From assembly GCF_000219625.1 (NCBI RefSeq), contig NC_018202.1:1-64000 (forward strand): a stretch of DNA of 64,000 nt, in the 5' to 3' direction. The stretch's first letter is position 1; the number at the start of each line of letters is the position of its first letter. This stretch comes from Zymoseptoria tritici IPO323. Taxonomy: Eukaryota; Ascomycota; Dothideomycetes; Mycosphaerellales; Mycosphaerellaceae. The position numbers and the translations under genes were made by a program. The notes under the pieces are model-generated. The model searched no databases. It was given only the letters and a program-made list of their open reading frames with translations, and was not told where the DNA came from. Positions 1-54,700 of the stretch are shown piece by piece.

Positions 1-107
1 CCCTAACCCTAACCCTAACCCTAACCCTAACCCTAACCCTAACCCTAACCCTAACCCTAACCCTAACCCTAACCCTAACCCTAACCCTAACCCTAACCCT
101 AACCCTA

Positions 108-108
<1 letters not shown>
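1..108. repeat. Telomere, 18 CCCTAA repeats
   Basis: Eighteen uninterrupted CCCTAA repeats, the C-rich strand of a TTAGGG telomere read from the left chromosome end. The sequence therefore starts at a true chromosome end and everything downstream is subtelomeric. TTAGGG is the usual repeat of filamentous ascomycetes. Confidence 0.98.

Positions 109-168
<60 letters not shown>
109..168. repeat. Variant telomere block, 10 CCCTCA repeats
   Basis: Ten perfect CCCTCA (TGAGGG) repeats follow directly on the canonical telomere. The change is one base per repeat and is fully homogeneous. CpA is kept in every unit although the DNA just inward has none, so this block escapes the mutation process acting on its neighbour. 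It may come from spread of a single variant by recombination or from template misreading; the sequence does not decide. Confidence 0.95.
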
Positions 169-169
<1 letters not shown>

Positions 170-1109
170 CGCCGCGCGCTTACGCGCGCGCCTAACCCTA
201 CGACTTTAACCTACTCTAAACTCTACTACTAATACGTCTTAACCCTAACTCGTACTTTTACCTATTTAACGGGTTACGCTTCGCGTCGATTTTATTAAAT
301 CTATTAACCCTAATACTATTACCTATTTAACGGGTTACGCTTTACGTCGACTTAATTAAACCTATTAACCGGGTTAGCGCTACGCGGATTCGGGTTCTAC
401 CCTATCTACTTCTATATCTTTATTCTATTTACTAATATTCTTATTATATAGGTTACGCTTTATATTTACCTTAGTTAATTAATTTATCTCTATATCGTAG
501 CTCTAAGTAGTCTAAGAAGAATAAGAGATAGTATATACCCTATATTTTATCTATACTCTAGAACTACTAGCTAAAGTATACTATATATATAAGCTATACT
601 TAAAGTATTAATCTATTAGGTTCTCGGCTTTTATATTATATATAATAGAGCCCTAATATATAATACTCTATACTTCTAGGCGCCTATACTATATACTATA
701 TATTTAGAGACCTTTATAGTATATAGTTCTAAGCTACTATAGTATATCTAGATACTAGTATACTCTAAACCGCTATACTCTATATTCTATACTCTATACT
801 TTAGGACCGCTATACTATATACTTAGAAACCGCTATATCTTATATCTCTAGACTACTATACTATATACTTAAAAACCGCTATATCTTATATCTCTAGACC
901 GCTATATCTTATATTCTAAAACCGCTATACTATATACTTAGAAATAGAATAGACTATATAAACCTTTAGTTTTCGTCTTACTCTTCTCTTCCTTTTCTTA
1001 ACCTTCTCTCTTATATTATCTACTCTATTACTACCTTTTATACTCTTTACTACTACTACCTTATATACTCTTTACTACTACTACCTCTTATACTCTTTAT
1101 TACTACTAG
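169..1109. other. AT-rich subtelomeric spacer free of CpA and TpG
   Basis: After a short GC-rich piece (169-190) the sequence becomes very AT-rich. Reading all 941 bases I find no CA and no TG dinucleotide, while CG is retained. This is the end state of RIP. Small internal repeats are visible: a 20-base stretch around ACGGGTTACGC occurs near 250 and again near 311, and units containing CCGCTATA recur between 780 and 945. Just before the start codon of the next gene a TACTACTACC/CTCTTTACTACT motif recurs three times (about 1025-1109). It must hold the promoter of the 1110 gene, but no core element stands out. Confidence 0.8.
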
Positions 1110-4100
1110 ATGTCTTCTACTACTAGTAGTATCTATTATAAGAATATAGATAGAATTAGGCCTCTTACTATAGAAGAATTTAATAAACTACTAGAGGATA
1201 ATAGGCCTTATACTAAGGAGACCTTTAAAGCTATTACTCCTAGTAGTATAGAGTCCTTAGAAGGGTTACCGCTAGACTATAATCCGGATCTAAAGCTATT
1301 AATTTGCTCGGAGTGTTCTACTACTCTTAATAAGGATATTAATAATATAGTAAAACATTTAAAGGTAAGTATAGTCTAGAGAGTATATTAGAAACCCTAC
1401 TAACTATATATAATAGGGACATTCGAATAAGAATAATAAGGAGACTAGAGAATATTATAACTCTACCTCTATTTTAGATTTAATTAAGAGCTTTATAGAG
1501 GGTAAAGATATACTTATTAAAGAGGAAAAGAATTCTAAGGAGTTTCTTAGTAATATAAGCTATAATACCTACTACTATCCTAACCTAGAGCTAAACCTAG
1601 ACGGATATAAATGCCGATTTTGTCTCTATCTTAATCCGAGCGCTAAAGAAGTACGAAGACATCTAAATAAAAAACATAACTATAAAAATACGACTACTCT
1701 TAATCCTAACGTTCTAAGAGAGGTTCCTATTATATCTATTAAAGGATTTAAGGATAATCTAAAGTATAGGTTTATACCTAAGTTTATTAAAGAGAATAGT
1801 AATACCTATACTAGTAGTATATCTAATACGGATCTAAATCTAGATACGTATAAAGACGTCTTTAGTAGTATAAAGAAGGATACGCTTTCTAACGCGCCTA
1901 AGGAATCTAATATAAATAGAGAGGAAGAGTTTTTTAATAGAAGTACCTACTACTTCCGATATCTAGAGGATAAGGACCTAGAACTACTTCTAAATATAAT
2001 AGATCCTAATATCTTTCTTAAGAATAGGCTACTAGCCTTTATCTATTATACGACTATAAATCTAGGCTTAGAGACCTTTAGTTCTATCGAAGATCTCTCT
2101 ATAAATACTAGGAAGGCTCTTAATAATTATAACCCGGGAAATAATAATCTAGAAGTTAAGGCCTTTAAAGAGCTAGATATAGCTACGAGAAAGTCTTACC
2201 TTAAGCCTATCGCTACCTTCTTCGTCTATCTCTATACTATATATCGAGAGCCGGAAGCCTACTACTCTAAGCCTACTATAGAGTCTTCTCTTAGTAGTCT
2301 TTTATTTAAAGTATCTACTATTAGTACGTATTTAATAGAGGATAGTAATAGAGCTAAAGAAGATCTAAAGAGAGTTTTATTAGAGACTCTAGATTATCTT
2401 CTTACTCTAGGAATAGATATAGTATTCTACGAGAATAGTAGCTTTAATAATCCCTTAATAACTTATTTAATTATAGCGAGCTTAGATCCGGCTAAGATCC
2501 TAGCCCTAGAAGATAAGAATACTATTATATTTAGAAAGACTACTTCGGTACAATCTCTACTATCTAAGTTAATCTACTCTAGCCGCCTCTTTACTTTAAA
2601 GTATCTAGTACTTCTAAGTACTACTACTACTAGAGTAGATAACGCTTTAAAGTTTATCGAGTCTAGATTAACTATAAATGCTAGTAACTACTTTACCGAG
2701 TACTATAGCCTTCGGATTAAGCTAAAGTATTATAATTATAATAAGATTAGTAGCTATAAGCCTATAGACGATATAGATCCGGATACTTTAGCTATAGATA
2801 ATATTAAGATTAATATAAATACGCTACGGACCTTATTTATAAAATCTTTAGAAGATCTAGAAGATCTATTCTTTAGAGAAATTATTCTATTTAATAAGAA
2901 GGAGGATAATATAATAGACCTAGACCTAAGTAAGATTCTCGATCGTAAAGATAATAATACGCCTTTAGAGGATCTAACGAGCTCTAAGTACCTAGTAAAA
3001 TATAAGGATATTCTTATTAAGAAGTTTATAAATAAAGATCTCTTACTAGATCCTAATCTAGGTAGTAAGGCTAGTATTAAAGACGGTATTCTAAGCTACT
3101 TTAAAAAGATCTATAACTTCTTAGTATCTTTAGCGCTAAATATCTACTTATTATCGAGTAGTCCCTTACGAGGGAAAGCGGTTATTCTACTTAAGTTTCG
3201 AAATACTAGTCTAGGATCCCTACGAGATATCTTCCTCGATAAGAGTAATAATTTAATAGCTTTAGATACGAGTAACCTCGATAAGAACCGGGACTCTACT
3301 ACCCTAAATACTAATACTATTCGGTTTCTACCTATACGCCTAACGAGGATAATAGTCTACTATATTACTTTTATTATTCCGCTAATAGAGTATCTACGGA
3401 TTAACTATCTAGACGTTATAACCCTAGAAACAAAGCTTTTCTTTAAGCTTTATAATAAGAATATTACGAGCCTTACTCTAAGTAAAGCTCTAAAGGATAT
3501 AACTAAAAAGTACTTTAATAAAGGAATTGGTATTAAAGAGTATAGACATTTAATAACCTATATAATTAAAGAGCGTATACTAGTAGAGAGGCCGGAGCTA
3601 TTAAGCCCTCGATCGAATAAAACGGCTATAAAATTAAGTAATCGAGAACAATCTAATATCGAGGATATACTAGCGGGACATTCTACTAAAGTAGCGAATC
3701 TAAACTACGCTAGAGAAACAAACTACTTTAGTAATAAGACTAGAGATACTACGAACCGAAGCCTAGCTTTCTCTAAGCTATACTTTAACTACTTTAATTT
3801 ACTAGAGGATAGATCGATAAGAGAGATCTTAAAAGATAAAGTAGAGTATATCTCTCGAGTAAAAAGCTATAAGACGGCTAGTAATAAAGAGGATAGTACT
3901 ACCTCTTCTTCTATATCTTCGATCGACTCTAGTAGTCTTAATCTAAGTAATAATTCGGATAATAAAACGCTTACTATTCCTAAGGTACTCGAGTCCTCTA
4001 AAGATAATCTAAGTAACCCTAGCTCGGGTTCTAACAAATCTCTTACCTTTAAGAATATATTTAGTAGTCCTAAGACTCTTTTAACCGAAGAAAATACCCG

Positions 4101-4632
4101 GAAAAATCGACTTACCCCTAAAGCTCTTCGTCTACTTAATAATAAAGTCTATAGCCCTTCGAAAGAAACCCTTATCGAAGATTATATAACGACTATTAAT
4201 ACTAAAGTAGAAAGTAATCCGGTACTAAAGAAAGATAGTAATAAAGGAAAGGCTCCTATTATCTTAAGTAGTAATAGTAATAGTAGCTCTTATAAAAGCG
4301 CTAGTAGCGTATCCTCTAATAATATTAAACCTAAGCTAAAACCCACTAGCTCTAAACCTATAGTTAAGAAACAGTCGAGCTCTAAGGCTATAGAAGATAT
4401 AGATATTCCTACTATTAATATCGAAAAGAACTCGAGTAGTAACTCTAAGGATAAAGAAGATAATAAAGCTATAAGCCGCTCTATATCTAGAGGATCTAAG
4501 CGCTCGTTTAGTAATAGAAGTAGTAGTAACGATAATAATAAGGGATCTTCTAATCCTCCGATAGCTAAAAAGGGTAGAGGTAGGCCTAAGAAGGTTAAGA
4601 CTAATAAGAGGGGACGGCCGAAAAAGATATAG
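1110..4632 (+). CDS. Telomere-adjacent zinc-finger, tyrosine-recombinase-like, AT-hook protein (1156 aa, one intron)
   Basis: Exon 1 is 1110-1364 and exon 2 is 1417-4632; I translated both by hand and met no stop before TAG 4630-4632. Residues 66-87 form C-x2-C-x13-H-x3-H, the last His coming from exon 2, and residues 151-172 form C-x2-C-x12-H-x4-H. Both resemble the paired fingers of fungal OrsD/DUF3505-type and telomere-linked helicase N-terminal proteins. Residues about 655-850 follow that family's pattern: PLRGK (R670), a RFLP block, EYRH (R795), AGHS (H840) and NYAR (Y849). The H-to-Y spacing of nine matches tyrosine recombinases. After about residue 880 it is Ser/Asn/Lys-rich and ends in two AT-hooks (GRGRPKK, KRGRPKK). 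No helicase domain follows. There is no Trp and only the initiator Met, and CpA/TpG survive at 20 sites only. Probably nuclear and DNA-binding; catalysis is inference. Exact family name uncertain. Confidence 0.88.
1365..1416 (+). other. Spliceosomal intron of the 1110 gene (52 nt)
   Basis: It starts GTAAGT, has a perfect TACTAAC branch site at 1398-1404 and ends in TAG at 1416, 12 bases downstream. It is phase 0. Removing it joins HLK to GHS and completes the first C2H2 finger; left in, translation stops at 1377. Length, branch motif and spacing are typical of filamentous fungi. It contains no CA or TG. Confidence 0.9.
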
Positions 4633-4842
4633 GATTATTAGAAAGCTAGAGGCTTAGGGTATATTTATATAGAAGATCTATATATTTCTTACTTCTTCGT
4701 TAGTAGTACTATCTTTCCTTACGCTTTCTTAGTAGTATATCCTTATAATAAATACTAGGAACTCTATAGCTTAAGAGAATATATAATATAGATTCCTAGA
4801 ACTAGAGTAATTAACCTTAAGCTAGCTATAATATACTTAGAC

Positions 4843-6840
4843 TTATCCTATATTTTTAAGGTTTTAATAGTATTTAGGTACGCTAGGAAAATAGTAGCTA
4901 GTCTATAGTATATCTAATAAGCTCTAGATACTTTATTTATAACTTATCTCTCTAAAGATTTCTTAATAATTTATTTTAAGCTCTATAGAATTTCTATTAC
5001 CTAACTACTATTTTTAATAGAGTATTAGGTATCTATATAGCCCTACAAAATTAATAGCTAGTCCCTAATAAATCTAAAAAGCTCTAGAGAATTTCTTTTA
5101 CCCTACCTACCCTAAGACCTACTTACTAATTTATTCTAGGCGCTATAGAGTATCTACTACCTAGCGATTATTTTTTATAGCTTTCTTAGTATCTATATAG
5201 CCTCTTAAAAATAGTAACTAGTCTATAGTAAGTCTAATAAGCTCTAGATAATTTACTTATAACTTATCTTACTAAGAGTTACTTAAGAATTTTTTTTGCG
5301 CTCTATAGAAGTTCTATTCCCTAACTACTATTTTTAATAGCTTACTTAGCATTAATATAGCCCTAGAAAAATAATAACTAGTCCTTAGTAAATCTAATAA
5401 GCTATAAAGAATTTCCTTAACTCTAGACTATATCCGAATTTCTCGCCGATTTATTTTAGGCACTATAGAGTTTCTATTACCCGGCTACTATTTTCTATAG
5501 CTTTCTTAGTATTTATATACCCTTAAGAAAATAGTAGCTAGTCCGTAGTAAATCTACTAAGCTCTAGATAATTTGCTTACAACTTATCTCCCTAAGAATT
5601 GTTTAACGATTTCTTTTAAGCTCTATAAAGTCTCTCCTACTTAGCTACTATTTTCTATAGCTTTCTTTATATCTATATAGCCCTAGAGAAATAGTAAGTA
5701 GTCCGTAGTAAACCTAATAAGCTCTAGATAATTTACTTATAACTTATCTCCCTAATAATTCTTTAACGATTTCTTTTAAGCTCTATAGAGTTTCTATTAC
5801 CCGGCTACTATTTTCTATAGCTTTCTTAGTATTTATATACCCTTAAGAAAATAGTAGCTAGTCCGTAGTAAATCTACTAAGCTCTAGATAATTTGCTTAT
5901 AACTTATCTCCCTAAGAATTGTTGAACGATTTCTTTTAAGCTCTATAAAGTCTCTCCTACTTAGCTACTATTTTCTATAGCTTTCTTTATATCTATATAG
6001 CCCTAGAGAAATGGTAAGTAGTCCGTAGTAAACCTAATAAGCTCTAGATAATTTACTTATAACTTATCTCCCTAATAATTCTTTAACGATTTCTTTTAAG
6101 CTCTATAGAATTTCTATTACCCGGCTATTATTTTCTATAGCTTTCTTAGTATCTATATAGCCTTAAACAAATAGTAGCTAGTCTATAGTTAATCTAATAA
6201 GCTCTAGATAATTTAACTATAACTTATCTTACTAAGAATTCCTCGACACTTTCTTTTAAGCTTTATAGAATTTTTATAACTAAACTGCTATTTTTTATAG
6301 CCTTTCTAGCATCTATAGAGCCCTAGAAAAATAATAACTAGTCCGTAGTAAATCTAATAGGCTCTAGATAATTTCCTTATAACTTATCTCCCTAAGAAGT
6401 ACTCGATAATTTATTTTACGCTCGATAGAATTTCTATACCCTAACTACTATTTTTTTTAGCTTCCTTAGTATCTATATAGCCCTAGAAAAATAATAGCTA
6501 GTCCTTAGTAAATCTAATAAGCTCTAGAGAATTTGCTTAAATCTAGGTCCTATCTAAATTTTTTACTAATTTCTTATAGGCTTTTTAGAATTCCTACTAC
6601 CTAACTGTTATTTTTTATAGCTTCCTTACTATTAGTATAATCTTAGAAAAATAGTAGCTAGTCCTTAGTAAATCTCCTAAGCTCTAAAGAAATCTATTAA
6701 TACTAATCTCTTCTAATATTACCGATCGATTTTTTCTAGGCTCTATAGAATTTCTATTACCTATCTACTCTTTTTCTAACCCTTCTTAGTATCTATATAG
6801 CCTAGGAAAAATAGTCGCTAGTCTCTAGTAATTCTTATAG
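4843..6840. repeat. Satellite with an exact 160-bp period, about 12 units
   Basis: The marker GCTCTAGATAATTT, or a mutated form, starts at 4921, 5081, 5241, 5401, 5561, 5721, 5881, 6041, 6201, 6361, 6521 and 6681: twelve steps of exactly 160 bp with no net insertion or deletion. Units differ by substitutions only. A higher-order pattern is visible, 5461-5780 being nearly identical to 5781-6100 (a 320-bp two-unit repeat). It is AT-rich and almost free of CpA/TpG. No reading frame. The 4633-4842 gap between gene and array holds nothing recognisable. Confidence 0.92.
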
Positions 6841-7374
6841 TAAATATAAAAATAGTAGTAGCTTACTCTTAGGGATCTTCTAATATTTTCTTAGTATTAT
6901 ATAAGTAGTTTATATACTTTTAACGCCCCTTTAACTCTATATAGTATTTAAGAAGGCTACTATTTATTCTAATAACCCTATATATTAACTATAAAGTCCT
7001 AAAAGAGGCTATTTATGTAGATATCTACTCTTAATTTTTCTAAGCTCTAATCTTTTTTTCTAGCCCTCGTTCTATTTTTCTCTTCTTTCTTTAAGTATTC
7101 TAATTCTAATAAAAATACTAGCTAAGGATTCTAAATTATAGTAAGCTCTAGAAAATTATATCTAGAATACCGATTATCTTAAAATAATTTTAGCTTCCTA
7201 AAGAGAGTACTTTTTCGACGTCTCTTAATTTTTCCTTAATCTATAAGCCTTAAGGGCTTATAGAAAATTCCCTAAAGCCCTCTCGAACGACTCGTCGCTT
7301 CGCGAAAAATCGCCTTATAGCTCCGCTCGGGTCGACTTCGTCGACCCGAGCTACGCTATAAGTAGGACTACTAG
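6841..7374. other. AT-rich spacer leading into GC-rich array
   Basis: No gene or RNA seen. The first 400 bases continue the CpA/TpG-poor AT-rich DNA; from about 7280 composition swings to GC-rich within some 50 bases, with CGACTCGTCGCTTCGCG-type sequence and an inverted GGGTCGAC/GTCGACCC pair near 7328-7347. Confidence 0.6.
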
Positions 7375-25343: not shown

Positions 25344-28300
25344 TTAAGGTGTCGATGGTGCCATTGGGGCTCGTGACTGCTCTTCTTCTTTAAGCGCACC
25401 TCTAGTAGCGACCGAGCTTGAATTTCCTTCGATCTCGACGTCTTCGTCCTTGGTCGGCGTTGCAGGTTACGAAGCCTCTACGGTGATATTAGTTCCCATC
25501 TCTTCTTCGACATGCTCGTCACGGATCTCACTCGCTCTTGGAAACAATAACTGCGATCGAGCTTGCTCCTACGACTCTCGCAAAGACAGACCCAGCACGA
25601 GCGCTACTTTCCTATCAACGCTGTTGCCGACGATCTTGTGTTGCTGAGCAGGGCTACCTATCAGAACCTCCCAGTCTTAATAGCCCTGAGCTCGCCTCGC
25701 TTCTATGACAGTCCAGATCCGATTCTGAGACCAGTGCATAAAACGTCCATTGATGCTATCTCCGATGGCGGTCTTAGTCACGATGGTTGGAAAGAGGCCA
25801 TTTGGGAACATTCGCGAAAACATTCTCGAGTTCTCCTGCCGACGGGTTGCGTTAACGTTGTCGCAGAATGTTAAGGGTTCTCCGCGTAGAAGCCCGAGCA
25901 ATTTGGCCTGTATAAGACCCATCCCGTACGGTCGAGTAGGCACAGCCGCCATCCGGGTTCGGTTTGTTGCCGACTCTAGCGACATGGTCCGATGGTCTGG
26001 GAATTGCGGGCAAAGCTGCGGTTGCGCATCTCCGATGTCTGGCAAGTCGGCGCAAGCCTGCGCCGGAGTGACGTATAGGAACGCAGTAAACTCGTCTTTG
26101 CAACTACCGAAAGGCAGGCCGTTGCTCGAGAGGCTAAGTGCACGACTTCTGAAGCTCATGTTTGGATGACTATGGCTGTGAGGAATTAGCGACAGTAGCG
26201 GCAGACCAGGAGCGGAAGCAGAGATGAACACTTGTGATCGTTGCTGTGGACTGCCGTGCGACCAGGCATCGCCCAGGAATTGCTGAACTTGATAACCAAG
26301 TGCGACCAAGGCCGCAACGATTTATAAAAACACATTCTGATCTTTATTCGGTCCCATCCCGGCCGTCATCGTAACAACGTTCTTAAGGAGGAAGTACCGC
26401 GGGACGTAGAAGTCCACAAATAACACGATCGACGCTACCAGCGAAGCGTTCTACTTAGACTGCTCGCTAAGCTTAAAGAGCTGCAGCATCGAAAATCCGG
26501 GGCATGGACTTCCGCCTGTGAGAATGTGAATATCTCCTGGCCGCGCGATGTTCGACTTTGGGTCGCCCGCCATGGCTCTGGCAAGCAAGTCGTTAACTGA
26601 GCCCAGGAAATACTCCATTCTATCCGGCCGTTGAACGTTTGCCCGGTGGCTATGCAACGCATGTTCATTCCAGTCGGCGGCATACTTGAATCTGGCGATA
26701 CCGGCTTCTTCCAAGCTACGGTCAAAGGTTCCACTACCGCAGAAGAGACTCATCCCGACTATTTTCTCGCCGTGGTGCATATTAGGATTCCATCCTTCTT
26801 TCATCGGTGGGAAACCATCTTGTGCTGCGGAAAGGGCTTCGGCGAGGTAAAAGAAATCGCCAGTCCCGTCTCGGTCGTACAGCGTGACAATGTCTCCAGA
26901 ATCGATTTGGTCTTGACGAAAGCAGCGCACATAGCACTTCCGGATGATTTTGTCGCATGCTTTGTCAAACACGACGTCCGTAAGTACCAGCTCGTTCGGC
27001 CTAGCTTTCGCGCCTGTCTGCTACTCGCTCTTCCGCAAGAATTGACGCAGAACGACGCGCCGCTTCTGGGTATCGAACTCGATAATTTGGGTAGGCTAGA
27101 GCCGGTCCTCGTCAAGGTCGTCATTCCATTCGCGGACGAGGACGGTGTCACCAATTGCATATTTGCTCCGGCACTCGTCGAATATAGGAACGTTATGCTT
27201 GCACTGGTACCTGAAGTCGCTTACTTGAATTGCAACGAAGTCGTATGTGTCTTGCTCGTGAACTGTGCGGAACTTCTGGCGCACGAAGTGTCCTCCCTGC
27301 TAATATGGATCCTTGGCATACCAACATACGTCTACCTTATCCAAGACGCAATCCAGGTCAAGAGCCAATGTGCCGCAGCTGCAGTTGTCGGACAAGAAGA
27401 GCTCATTCGCAAAAGGGTAATAGGCTTTGCCAAGTGTAGTGTCCTTTGGCTTGTACAGCCAGAGAACATCGAGCGAAGTACGATCTTTGCAAGTGTGCAC
27501 GTTCTAAACATAGGCATACCATGCGTGCGCTTTGATCCCCCATTTGGTACTGACATCCGGTGCGACGCATACGACATCCCCTGTGTTCACCATGACTGCT
27601 TTGTTCCCCTCTTGAGATTCGCTTCGGCTCATACTCCTAGGCGTTAAGGTTTGCATTGGCGGTGCACTTAGAGATGCTCGTCGCGGCGTCAGTCTGAGCC
27701 TTGCTTTCAGCTCATCCGACTTCTTTAGCACATTTCGGTCCGTGATCGTCCGCTCTTCTAGCTGGTTACCGAAGTACATATGTCGAAAGCACTGGTAGAC
27801 AAAAGGCGTGACGATCGTTCGCAACTCCTTGTTTGGCTGCGCTGGGATAGCTGTGAGATTATAGGGATCGACTTTACCCTAGATCGGTTGTCAGCACAAT
27901 CTAGACTCTTTGTCATCGATATCCCAGCATTCTTTCCAAAGGAAGCCGACATTTGCAGCAATGGTCGTGCGGAAGTCTTTGAGTTTGCATTCAGCTAGCC
28001 ATTAGTTGAAGCCAGTGTTATCGCCGTGGAGTCTAGTCAGCCATTGGTAAAATCGTCTGCGGAAATGTCCAAGGGTGACCTGCTGGTTGCTGAGGAGGTA
28101 GTCGACGAAGTGCTTCCCGAACCGTGCTAGCTAAAGGAACAGCTCGTAGAATCGACGATATTCCGGTGCAGGCGTTCCCAGCTCGTACCAATGACTAAAC
28201 AGAGCGGACGCTTTCGACTGTAGCTTCGATTGAATGCAGATGCTACCGGCAAAATCTGTAAAGTCTAGGTCGCCATACCTACTGATAGCCAAGATCTCGA

Positions 28301-51797: not shown

Positions 51798-54700
51798 TTA
51801 AGGTGTCGATGGTGCTATTAGGGCTCGTAACTGCTCTTCTTCTTTAAGCGCACCTCTAGTAGCGACCGAGCTTGAATTTCCTTCGATCTCGACGTCTTCG
51901 TCCTTAGTCGGCGTTGTAGGTTGCAAAGCCTCTACGGTAATATCGGTTCCTATCTCTTCTTCGACATGCTCGTTACGGATCTTACTTGCTCTTAGAAACA
52001 ATAACTGCGATCGAGCTTGCTCCTACGACTTTCGTAAAGACAGACCTAGTACGAGCGCTACTTTCCTGTTAATACTGTTGCCGACGATCTTGTGTTGCTA
52101 AGCAGGGCTACCTATTAGAACCTCCTAGTCTTAATAGCCCTGAGCTCGCCTCGCTTCTATAACAGTCCAGATCCGATTCTGAGACTAGTACATGAAACGT
52201 CTATTGATACTATCTCCGATGGCGGTCTTAGTAACGATAGTTGGAAAGAGGCTATTTAGGAACATTCGCGAAAACATTCTCGAGTTCTCCTACCGACAGG
52301 TTGCGTTAACGTTATCGCAGAATGTTAAGGGTTCTCCGCGTAGAAGCCCGAGCAATTTGGCCTGCATAAGACCTATCCCGTACAGTCGAGTAGGCATAGC
52401 CGCTATCCGTGTTCGGTTTGTTACCGACTCTAGCGACATAGTCCGATGGTCTGGGAATTATAGGCAAAGCTGCGGTTGCGTATCTCCGATATCTAGTAAG
52501 TCGGCGTAAGCCTACGCCGGAGTAACGTATAGGAACGTAGTGAACTCGTCTTTGCGACTGCCGAAAGGCAGGCCGTTGCTCGAGAGGCTAAGTGTACGAC
52601 TTCTAAAGCTCATGTTTGGATGACTGTGGCTATAAGGAATTAGCGATAGTGGCAGCAGACCAGGAGCGGAAGTAGAGATAAATACTCGTGATCGTTGCTA
52701 TGGACTACCGTGCGACCAGGCATCGCCTAGGAATTGCTGAACTTAATAACTAAGTGCGACTAAGGCCGCAACGATTTGTGAAAACACATTCTGATCTTTA
52801 TTCGGTCCTATCCCGGCCGTTATTATAACAACGTTCTTAAGGAGGAAGTACTGTAGGACGTAGAAGTCTACGAATGACACGATCGACGCTACTAGCGAAG
52901 CGTTCTACTTAGACTGCTCGCTAAGCTTGAAGAGCTATAGTATCGAAAATCCGGGGTATGGACTTCCGCCTGTGAGAATATGAATATCTCCTGGCCGCGC
53001 GATGTTCGATATTAGGTCGCCCGCCATAGCTCTAGTAAGCAAGTCGTTAACTGAGCCCAGGAAATACTCCATTCTATCCGGCCGTCGAACGTTTGCCCGG
53101 TAGCTGTACAACGCATGTTCATTCCAGTCGGCGGCATACTTGAATCTGGCGATACCGGCTTCTTCTAAGCTACGGTTAAAGGTTCTACTACCGTAGAAGA
53201 GACTTATTCCGACTATTTTCTCGCCGTAGTGCATATTAGGATTCTATCCTTCTTTCATTAGTAGGAAACTATCTCGTACTACGGAAAGGTCTTCGGCAAG
53301 GTAAAAGAAATCGCCAGTCCCGTCTTGGTCGTACGGCGTGACAATGTCTCCAGAATCGATTTGGTCTTAACGAAAGCAGCGCACATAGCACTTCCGGATA
53401 ATTTTGTCGCATGCTTTGTCAAACACGACGTCCGTAAGTACTAGCTCGTTCGGCCTAGCTTTCGCGCCTATCTACTGCTCGCTCTTCCGCAAGAATTGAC
53501 GCAGAACGACGCGCCGCTTCTGGGTATCGAACTCGATAATTTGGGCTGGCTAGAGCTAGTCCTCGTCAAGGTCGTTATTCTATTCGCGGACGAGGACGGT
53601 GTTACTAATTGCATATTTGCTCCGGCACTCGTCGAATATAGGAACGTTATGCTTGCACTAGCACCTAAAGTCGCTTGCTTAAATTGCAACGAAGTCGTAT
53701 ATGTCTTGCTCGTAAACTGTGCGGAACTTCTGGCGCACGAAGTGTCCTCCCTACTAATATAGATCCTTAGCATACTAACATACGTCTGCCTTATCTAAGA
53801 CGCAATCTAGGTCGAGAGCCGATGTGCCGCAGCTGCAGTTGTCGGACAAGAAGAGCTTATTCGCAAAAGGGTAATAGGCTTTGCTAAGTGTAGTGTCCTT
53901 TAGCTTATACAGCTAGAGAACATCGAGCGAAGTACGATCTTTGCGAGTGTACACGTTCTAAACATAGGCATACTATGCGTACGCTTTAATCCCCTATTTA
54001 GTACTAACATCCGGCGCGACGTATACGACATCCCCTGTATTCACCGTAACTACTTTGTTCCCCTCTTGAGATTCGCTTCGGCTCATACTCCTAGGCGTTA
54101 AGGTTTACATTAGCGGTGCACTCGGAGATGCTCGTCGCGGCGTTAGTCTAAGCCTTGCTTTTAGCTTATCCGACTTCTTTAGCACATTTCGGTCCGTGAT
54201 CGTCTGCTCTTCTAGCTAGTTACCGAAGTACATATGTCGAAAGTACTAGTAGACAAAAGGCGTAACGATCGTTCGCAACTCCTTATTTGGCTGCGCTAGG
54301 ATAGCTGTAAGATTATAGGGATCGACTTCACCCTAGATCGGTTGTCGGCACAATCTAGACTCTTTGTTATTAATATCCTAGCATTCTTTCCAAAGGAAGC
54401 CGACATTTGCGGCAATAGTTGTGCGGAAGTCTTTAAGTTTGCATTCAGCTAGCTATTAGTTGAAGCTAGTGTTATCGCTATAGAGTCTAGTCAGCTATTA
54501 GTAAAATCGTCTGCGGAAATATCCAAGGGTGACCTGCTAGTTGCTGAGGAGGTAGTCGACGAAGTGCTTCCCGAACCGTACTAGCTAAAGGAACGGCTCG
54601 TAGAATCGACGATATTCCGGTGTAGGCGTTCCCAGCTCGTACCAATAACTAAACAGAGCGGACGCTTTCGACTGCAGCTTCGATTAAATGCAGATGCTAC

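Follow-up and report, generated by a model that had tools for sequence, protein, structure and literature searches.

A multicopy telomere gene of Zymoseptoria tritici keeps an open reading frame after losing about 95% of its RIP target sites

By the usual view, multicopy genes cannot last under repeat-induced point mutation (RIP). In this study, we investigated a predicted gene of 1156 codons at positions 1,110 to 4,632 of the first 64,000 nucleotides of contig NC_018202.1 from Zymoseptoria tritici IPO323 (this whole stretch is the window), which would correspond to the left terminus of dispensable chromosome 17 (C17L). We observed that this multicopy telomere gene is without about 95% of its RIP target sites, the dinucleotides CA and TG, and that its frame is still open throughout. 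The closest described system is the subtelomeric 'RecQ helicase' family of Mycosphaerella graminicola, for which the available part of Dhillon et al. 2014 (PMC4522978) gives a 3.2-kb open reading frame on chromosome 12 and 13 copies, 7 full and 6 truncated, on nine chromosomes; these are very probably the same genes as the present family, with its 7 full and 6 partial copies on nine contigs. The gene of that report has a coding sequence of 3,480 bp, a GC content of 34.7% and the name of a helicase, whereas the gene described here has 3,471 bp, 32% and no helicase domain; the accessible portion of the paper carries no remark that we saw on RIP-target loss in the gene. An earlier note on this DNA knew of no described gene of this kind, a claim that has to be narrowed, as the family has been in print since 2014; near-complete CpA loss with an open frame was not found described in the accessible parts of the open-licence literature, as far as our searches reach.

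Other known systems share single traits with the locus. Fungal telomere-linked helicases (TLH), as presented in the available sections of PMC4522978, PMC5576322 and PMC12857005, are likewise subtelomeric and multicopy, have an OrsD (DUF3505)-type N-terminus and are homologous to our gene in their pre-helicase part; the present gene differs in being without DEAD and Helicase_C, and the helicase-less proteins form a separate clade. Histone H3 of Pseudocercospora fijiensis is, in the accessible text of PMC6710886, an intact gene with possible RIP signatures for which strong purifying selection is credited, but that case comprises one intact original and RIP-inactivated copies at a GC content of about 59-61%, whereas none of the full copies found in the present family is broken and most of its targets have been lost. 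In the het-d/het-e NWD family of Podospora, RIP also acted on a family with functional members; the strongly RIPed members in the part of PMC1805685 at hand are, however, pseudogenes with nonsense mutations. For Z. tritici, the available passages describe repeats biased from CpA to TpA in the manner of RIP (PMC4522978) and a mitotic mutator that depends on Dim2 (PMC8016269): CA accounts for more than 98% of the C-to-T changes in a strain with live dim2 and for about 21% in IPO323.

Between 1110 and 4632 we counted 20 CA/TG dinucleotides (13 CA and 7 TG) against 383 expected from base composition, in line with the 20 sites and the expectation of 350-400 in the earlier note, and they fall exactly into the residue classes listed there: the start ATG, eight zinc-ligand codons (C66, C69, H83, H87, C151, C154, H167, H172), H796 (EYRH), H840 (AGHS), Q464, Q830, Q1071, two ACA codons and four codon-boundary cases. 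The protein holds one Met and no Trp, so that the absence of Trp and internal Met was correctly read, and the intron has no CA/TG. The flanking non-coding DNA is depleted too, as had been claimed, with 0 CA/TG against about 85 expected upstream (231-1109) and 17 against about 232 downstream (4633-7000, minisatellite included). The observed-to-expected ratios of the window gene are 0.06 for CpA and 0.04 for TpG, against 1.16 for CpG, 1.16 for CpC and 1.98 for CpT; since the latter three are undepleted, the loss is specific to CpA/TpG, the RIP target. When the same protein was randomly recoded with synonymous codons, 322 +- 13 CA/TG (minimum 287 in 500 draws) were obtained under uniform codon choice and 287 +- 13 (minimum 251 in 500 draws) under base-weighted choice. 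None of the 1156 codons is an in-frame stop, as the earlier note held, and the remaining five frames carry 46-236 stops.

The genome was searched for further copies by scoring best candidates only, and the copy counts given here are those among the matches listed. Its 19 rows comprise 13 of the gene family, 4 from two true helicase genes and 2 weak distant ones. Seven copies are full-length (C17L, C17R, C12L, C3L, C20L, C20R and C4) and six are partial (C5, C13R, C12:23968, C6, C3R and C18R), all 13 lying on nine contigs, of both accessory and core chromosomes (C17 and C20 are among the dispensable chromosomes 14-21 of the accessible part of PMC4522978). The frame is open in all seven full copies, which have 17-25 CA/TG apiece where 376-384 would be expected, at a GC content of 32%; an assembly frame error is ruled out as unlikely by these seven open copies. 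A full copy starting 1.0-1.1 kb from the end was found at 6 of the 42 contig ends, and the seventh starts 8.5 kb in on C4, so the idea that the gene sits at all chromosome ends does not hold among the matches listed. The partial copies C5 and C13R are 5'-truncated at codons 271 and 284 and open to the end, while C12:23968, 59% identical, has an open frame of 513 codons with 11 CA/TG against 143 expected. One stop apiece was recorded within the 50-residue matches of C3R and C18R; that of C18R should sit at the truncation edge, because the C18R DNA from 4491 on is identical to that of the window. The first 3087 bases of the copies are 96-98% identical to the window copy, whichever tail type they carry, and leader identity to C17L is 99% in C3L and C20L and 84-88% in C12L, C20R and C4.

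The copies bear the mark of purifying selection, and CA/TG is left mostly where a hit changes or ends the protein. Computed over 1011 codons (741 and 728 where C5 and C13R are involved), the ratio dN/dS lies at 0.09-0.19 in every one of the 28 pairs, with dS up to 0.15, and no stop occurs in nine long paralogues; the purifying selection proposed in the earlier note is thereby supported. A RIP-dead pseudogene was ruled out by the absence of stops and the low dN/dS. Six distinct full copies were compared over the first 3087 bases of the gene, C17R being left out as identical to C17L. One or more of these copies have CA/TG at 31 positions, of which 14 are fixed and 17 variable. The fixed sites are the start ATG, the eight zinc-ligand codons, H796, H840, Q464, Q830 and A507, and a hit on any of the 14 gives a missense change or a stop, whereas the variable sites divide into 9 silent and 8 missense (6 of the latter in ACA codons). 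Thus 14 of 22 nonsynonymous residual sites are fixed against 0 of 9 silent ones (p=0.0013), all four CA/TG of finger 1 are fixed in 6/6 copies, and conservation of residual sites is, as anticipated, higher at zinc and catalytic-type codons than where a hit would be silent. The stronger wording, that CpA/TpG is kept only where the protein needs it, has to be qualified: a retained Gln need not be functional, because a CpA hit on CAA or CAG yields only a stop and the codon can be trapped, and Q830 and A507 are not conserved in homologues.

The features at this end of the window, given by position, strand and content, are as follows.
1..170, no strand: CCCTAA telomeric array with a CCCTCA variant tail (sequence and tandem repeat analysis).
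171..1109, + strand: 5' leader from telomere to gene, free of CA/TG from 231 (CA/TG count, leader comparison).
1110..1364, + strand: exon 1, codons 1-85, holding C66, C69 and H83 of finger 1.
1365..1416, + strand: intron of 52 bp, GTAAGT...TACTAAC...TAG (predicted from sequence).
1417..4632, + strand: exon 2, codons 86-1156 and TAG.
1305..1422, + strand: C2H2 finger 1 (C66, C69, H83, H87), split by the intron.
1612..1677, + strand: C2H2 finger 2 (C151, C154, H167, H172) (profile matches, homologue columns).
3049..3816, + strand: tyrosine-recombinase-like core (homologue conservation, register with E. coli XerD).
4576..4626, + strand: two AT-hook-like RGRPKK motifs, codons 1139-1144 and 1150-1155 (sequence; PF02178 match weak, E 0.64).
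4883..6839, no strand: 160-bp minisatellite array 3' of the gene, 12.2 copies with 77% matches, also poor in CA/TG.

The gene points away from the chromosome end and encodes 1156 amino acids in two exons, with finger 1 completed across the predicted splice junction (H87 is encoded in exon 2). The intron ends GTAAGT and TATATATAATAG are common to 7/7 full copies, and TACTAAC was read in the window copy alone. Finger 2 matches PF23225 (E 3.6e-5) and PF12013 OrsD (E 0.14), both below family cut-offs, and 13 of the 20 members of alignment A2 match OrsD with E of 1 or below. Neither DEAD nor Helicase_C is listed for exon 2 of the window gene at E up to 10; the label 'RecQ helicase' was rejected for this gene, no helicase domain having been found. 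By its sequence, the gene appears related to subtelomeric RecQ helicases while being without the helicase, and its product would consist of two C2H2 fingers, a recombinase-like core and an AT-hook-like tail.

The core shares with tyrosine recombinases (XerD, Cre, lambda Int; Crypton/DUF3504; Starship captain/DUF3435) the order R, K, R, H, Y, at R670 (3169), K708 (3283), R795-H796 (3544-3549), H840 (3679) and Y849 (3706), and with XerD the H-to-Y spacing of 9; it differs in having KxxR rather than HxxR in box II, with Lys where His is usual, and in giving no significant sequence match to any of them. R670, K708, R795, H840 and Y849 are conserved in the helicase-less members, the exceptions being P0013 (truncated; R670 to Lys) and P0014 (H840 to Arg), while among helicase members His840 is often replaced and Y849 is kept in the 7/7 that reach the position. 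All five catalytic positions are in register with E. coli XerD, against a maximum of 3 in 200 column shuffles; the XerD residue numbers are those we take to be catalytic, and the letters were checked in the alignment. On the opposite side, the profile score was equalled or exceeded in 15/200 shuffles, so that the assignment rests on motif register, and hhalign against recombinases gave a probability of 0.18 (of 100) and E 0.33. No recombinase is among the matches listed, namely 24 PDB sequences and 25 of 27 Pfam families for A2 members; PF11917 (DUF3435) and PF12012 (DUF3504) are absent from the matches listed for the window protein (E up to 10) and from those 25 of 27 families, and the PF12012 search of the own genome gave no match at all and hence no evidence of absence. 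H796, directly after the box II Arg, is Gln, Lys or His in relatives, and its role is less certain for that reason. We consider the core tyrosine-recombinase-like with moderate strength; beyond this, the protein would bind DNA of the subtelomeres and might also cleave or join it.

In the protein searches, scoring was limited to the 8000 candidates with the most words in common, which makes the relatives found a lower bound, and some homologue rows come from short contigs and are incomplete proteins. Met, Trp, His, Gln and Cys (M/W/H/Q/C) amount to 103 per 1000 residues in P0015 (1130 aa), 101 in P0023 (1088 aa; finger 1 is absent from the predicted sequence) and 12 in the window protein. The helicase-less proteins form their own clade of 13 rows with support 100/100, in which these residues number 6-13 per 1000 in 10 rows, 32 in P0004, 36 in P0006 and 103 in P0015; either stripping was repeated or it was reversed in P0015, which is nested inside the clade, and the tree decides neither. 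The stripped state is common to homologues at 31-40% identity (P0016, P0007, P0017 and P0014). P0016 (1283 aa) is rich in Ala, Leu and Pro, GC-coded residues, yet has 10 M/W/H/Q/C per 1000; as the most telling homologue, it points to a CpA loss uncoupled from AT-richness. The helicase homologues P0008 and P0009, both with PF12013, are 30% and 28% identical over 83% and 85% of the query. Twenty M/W/H/Q/C columns are common to P0015 and P0023, and the window protein keeps 8 of them (M1, C151, C154, H167, H172, Q464, H796 and H840) and has lost 12.

Probably, a helicase-less telomere-linked family was mutated at CpA as a multicopy sequence and stripped under purifying selection, its persistence being a by-product. 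Being multicopy, the gene is a target of CpA-directed C-to-T mutation, and RIP or Dim2, we infer, was the agent; the candidates are meiotic RIP and the mitotic, Dim2-dependent CpA mutator of strains with live dim2 (PMC8016269, in the part available), acting singly or together. Copies with a harmful hit would have been lost, recombination between chromosome ends would have spread the surviving ones, and over a long time nearly every tolerable CA/TG would have been converted. A hit on the 20 sites of the window gene gives 15 missense changes, 3 stops and 2 silent changes, while randomly recoded unstripped homologues have about 210 missense, 49 stop and 135 silent targets. The number of harmful targets would thus fall from about 260 to about 18 in the end product, which would leave a usable copy after more exposures; in round, illustrative figures, a hit rate of 0.05 per site and exposure gives 42% escape for 17 harmful sites and <0.01% for 200. 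Few targets would in this way protect the gene, as a result of saturation and selection rather than designed protection: stripping need not be adaptive, because the intron and flanks are stripped too, and the low target number may be a by-product. The earlier note's overall interpretation is accordingly retained for purifying selection through CpA-directed mutation and qualified for immunity, presence at all ends and novelty; 'immune' to further RIP is too strong, as a hit at 18 of the 20 sites would still alter the protein or cut it short. A repeated gene that is open after about 95% target loss suggests an escape route from RIP, saturation under selection, which would provide a natural mutational scan marking zinc ligands and recombinase-type residues and opens the role of the N-terminal part of telomere-linked helicases to testing.

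Several points weigh against this interpretation. Eight of the 22 nonsynonymous residual sites vary, and at A507 and Q830 the fixed state among the copies is not matched by conservation in homologues. Because the copies are of recent common descent and exchange sequence (mosaic leaders), the sites are not independent; dN/dS is as low in truncated copies as in full ones; all gene copies come from one genome, and the gene is known here from DNA sequence alone. The two weak distant matches (C16 and C11) contain 5 and 4 stops, and dim2 is non-functional in IPO323 today, according to the accessible parts of PMC4522978 and PMC8016269. Retention of 8/20 shared M/W/H/Q/C columns against 227/356 other shared columns (p=0.055) is only suggestive. 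Conservation in the window protein is 11/107 for M/W/H/Q/C against 358/958 for others, but the unstripped pair P0015-P0023 already has a low baseline (20/100 against 363/888), so the window figure overstates the RIP effect, and the Fisher test of window against P0015 (5e-10) was toned down accordingly.

Within the proposed explanation, what selection acts on can be read in two ways. The gene might be a selfish telomeric element whose protein carries or copies the gene encoding it from one chromosome end to another, selection at the level of the element keeping the frames; the multicopy, end-linked state on accessory and core chromosomes, the recombinase-like residues, the identical inverted ends of C17 over 7330 bp and the mosaic leaders elsewhere agree with this, but ordinary recombination between ends would account for the spread, and copies at dS 0.15 are still open though unused copies should decay, so that we regard it as possible at somewhat less than an even chance. 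Selection on the fungus could instead keep a beneficial telomere maintenance gene at several ends, to which the low dN/dS on every full copy, the start of 6/7 full copies within 1.0-1.1 kb of a contig end and the relation to telomere-linked helicases are favourable; most ends are without a copy among the matches listed, copies lie on accessory chromosomes, and we know of no phenotype for the gene, and we give this option the same chance. More broadly, telomeric recombinase-like genes in several fungal lineages might repeatedly have become 'mutator-saturated' via RIP and selection and persist indefinitely, with residual CpA/TpG mapping the indispensable residues and the protein perhaps a telomere-dedicated tyrosine recombinase, a proposal that we find conceivable but somewhat doubtful. 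Recent spread of one master copy, with copies that look intact because of their youth and of RIP that at present is weak or inactive, is unlikely: the identity of C17L and C17R and the non-functional dim2 of IPO323 (PMC4522978 and PMC8016269, as available) suit it, but dS reaches 0.15, 9/9 long copies have no stop at dN/dS of about 0.1, and stripping shared with homologues down to 31-40% identity looks old. A general AT-rich composition in place of CpA-directed mutation has the GC content of 32% on its side and is hardly credible in view of the undepleted CpG, CpC and CpT beside the depleted CpA and TpG, and of the Ala/Leu/Pro-rich P0016.

For comparison, a PF00145 profile search of the same genome, best candidates only, gave 17 rows, 14 of them with 1-11 stops within 111-384 codons; the rows without stops are C5:252875 and C5:253565 (one frame) and C6:2524984 (one long frame). 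Taken as a group, the 14 stop-bearing rows would be the amplified dim2 copies of the available literature (PMC4522978, PMC8016269). Two such matches lie in the window.
25602..26753, - strand: match to a DNA-methyltransferase domain, with 3 in-frame stops and a CA/TG observed/expected ratio of 1.01; probably a copy of dim2.
52674..53207, - strand: second methyltransferase domain match, with 4 in-frame stops and a ratio of 0.63.
This suggests that ordinary amplified genes break early, whereas the telomere gene is open at a ratio of 0.05.

The two telomere-linked helicase genes, at C13L (L020:904-5991, - strand) and C8R (L021:3805-8736, + strand), are partly stripped (CA/TG 101/577 and 95/558, 0.17 of expectation), and their frames are open over 1696 and 1644 codons, both with DEAD and Helicase_C. 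They differ at 12/4932 sites, of which 6 are CA/TG to TA and 11 are nonsynonymous, none giving a stop; the 6 CA/TG-to-TA differences count as recent CpA mutation within the family. The recombinase-type His residues are replaced in both genes (YRK, ANRS).

Concerning the ends themselves, those of C17 are identical and inverted over 7330 bp (window 36-7365 against the right end, L009), and the C-terminal ~145 codons of the family occur in two tail types, C17/C12/C3/C5/C13R against C20/C4. Telomeric repeats adjoin truncated copies at L016:6170-6192 and L018:3964-3980, and the tail sequence before these repeats is also found distal to the intact C4 copy, an arrangement that suggests chromosome-end loss, healing and then element insertion. 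We gave up the view that terminal loss produced every truncated copy, as abutting CCCTAA occurs only at C5 and C12:23968 and not at C3R, C18R or C13R. Matches to DUF3435 (PF11917), of the Starship-captain type, were recorded at C14:257637-259051 and C7:96047-96984, with stops in one of the two rows on each contig.

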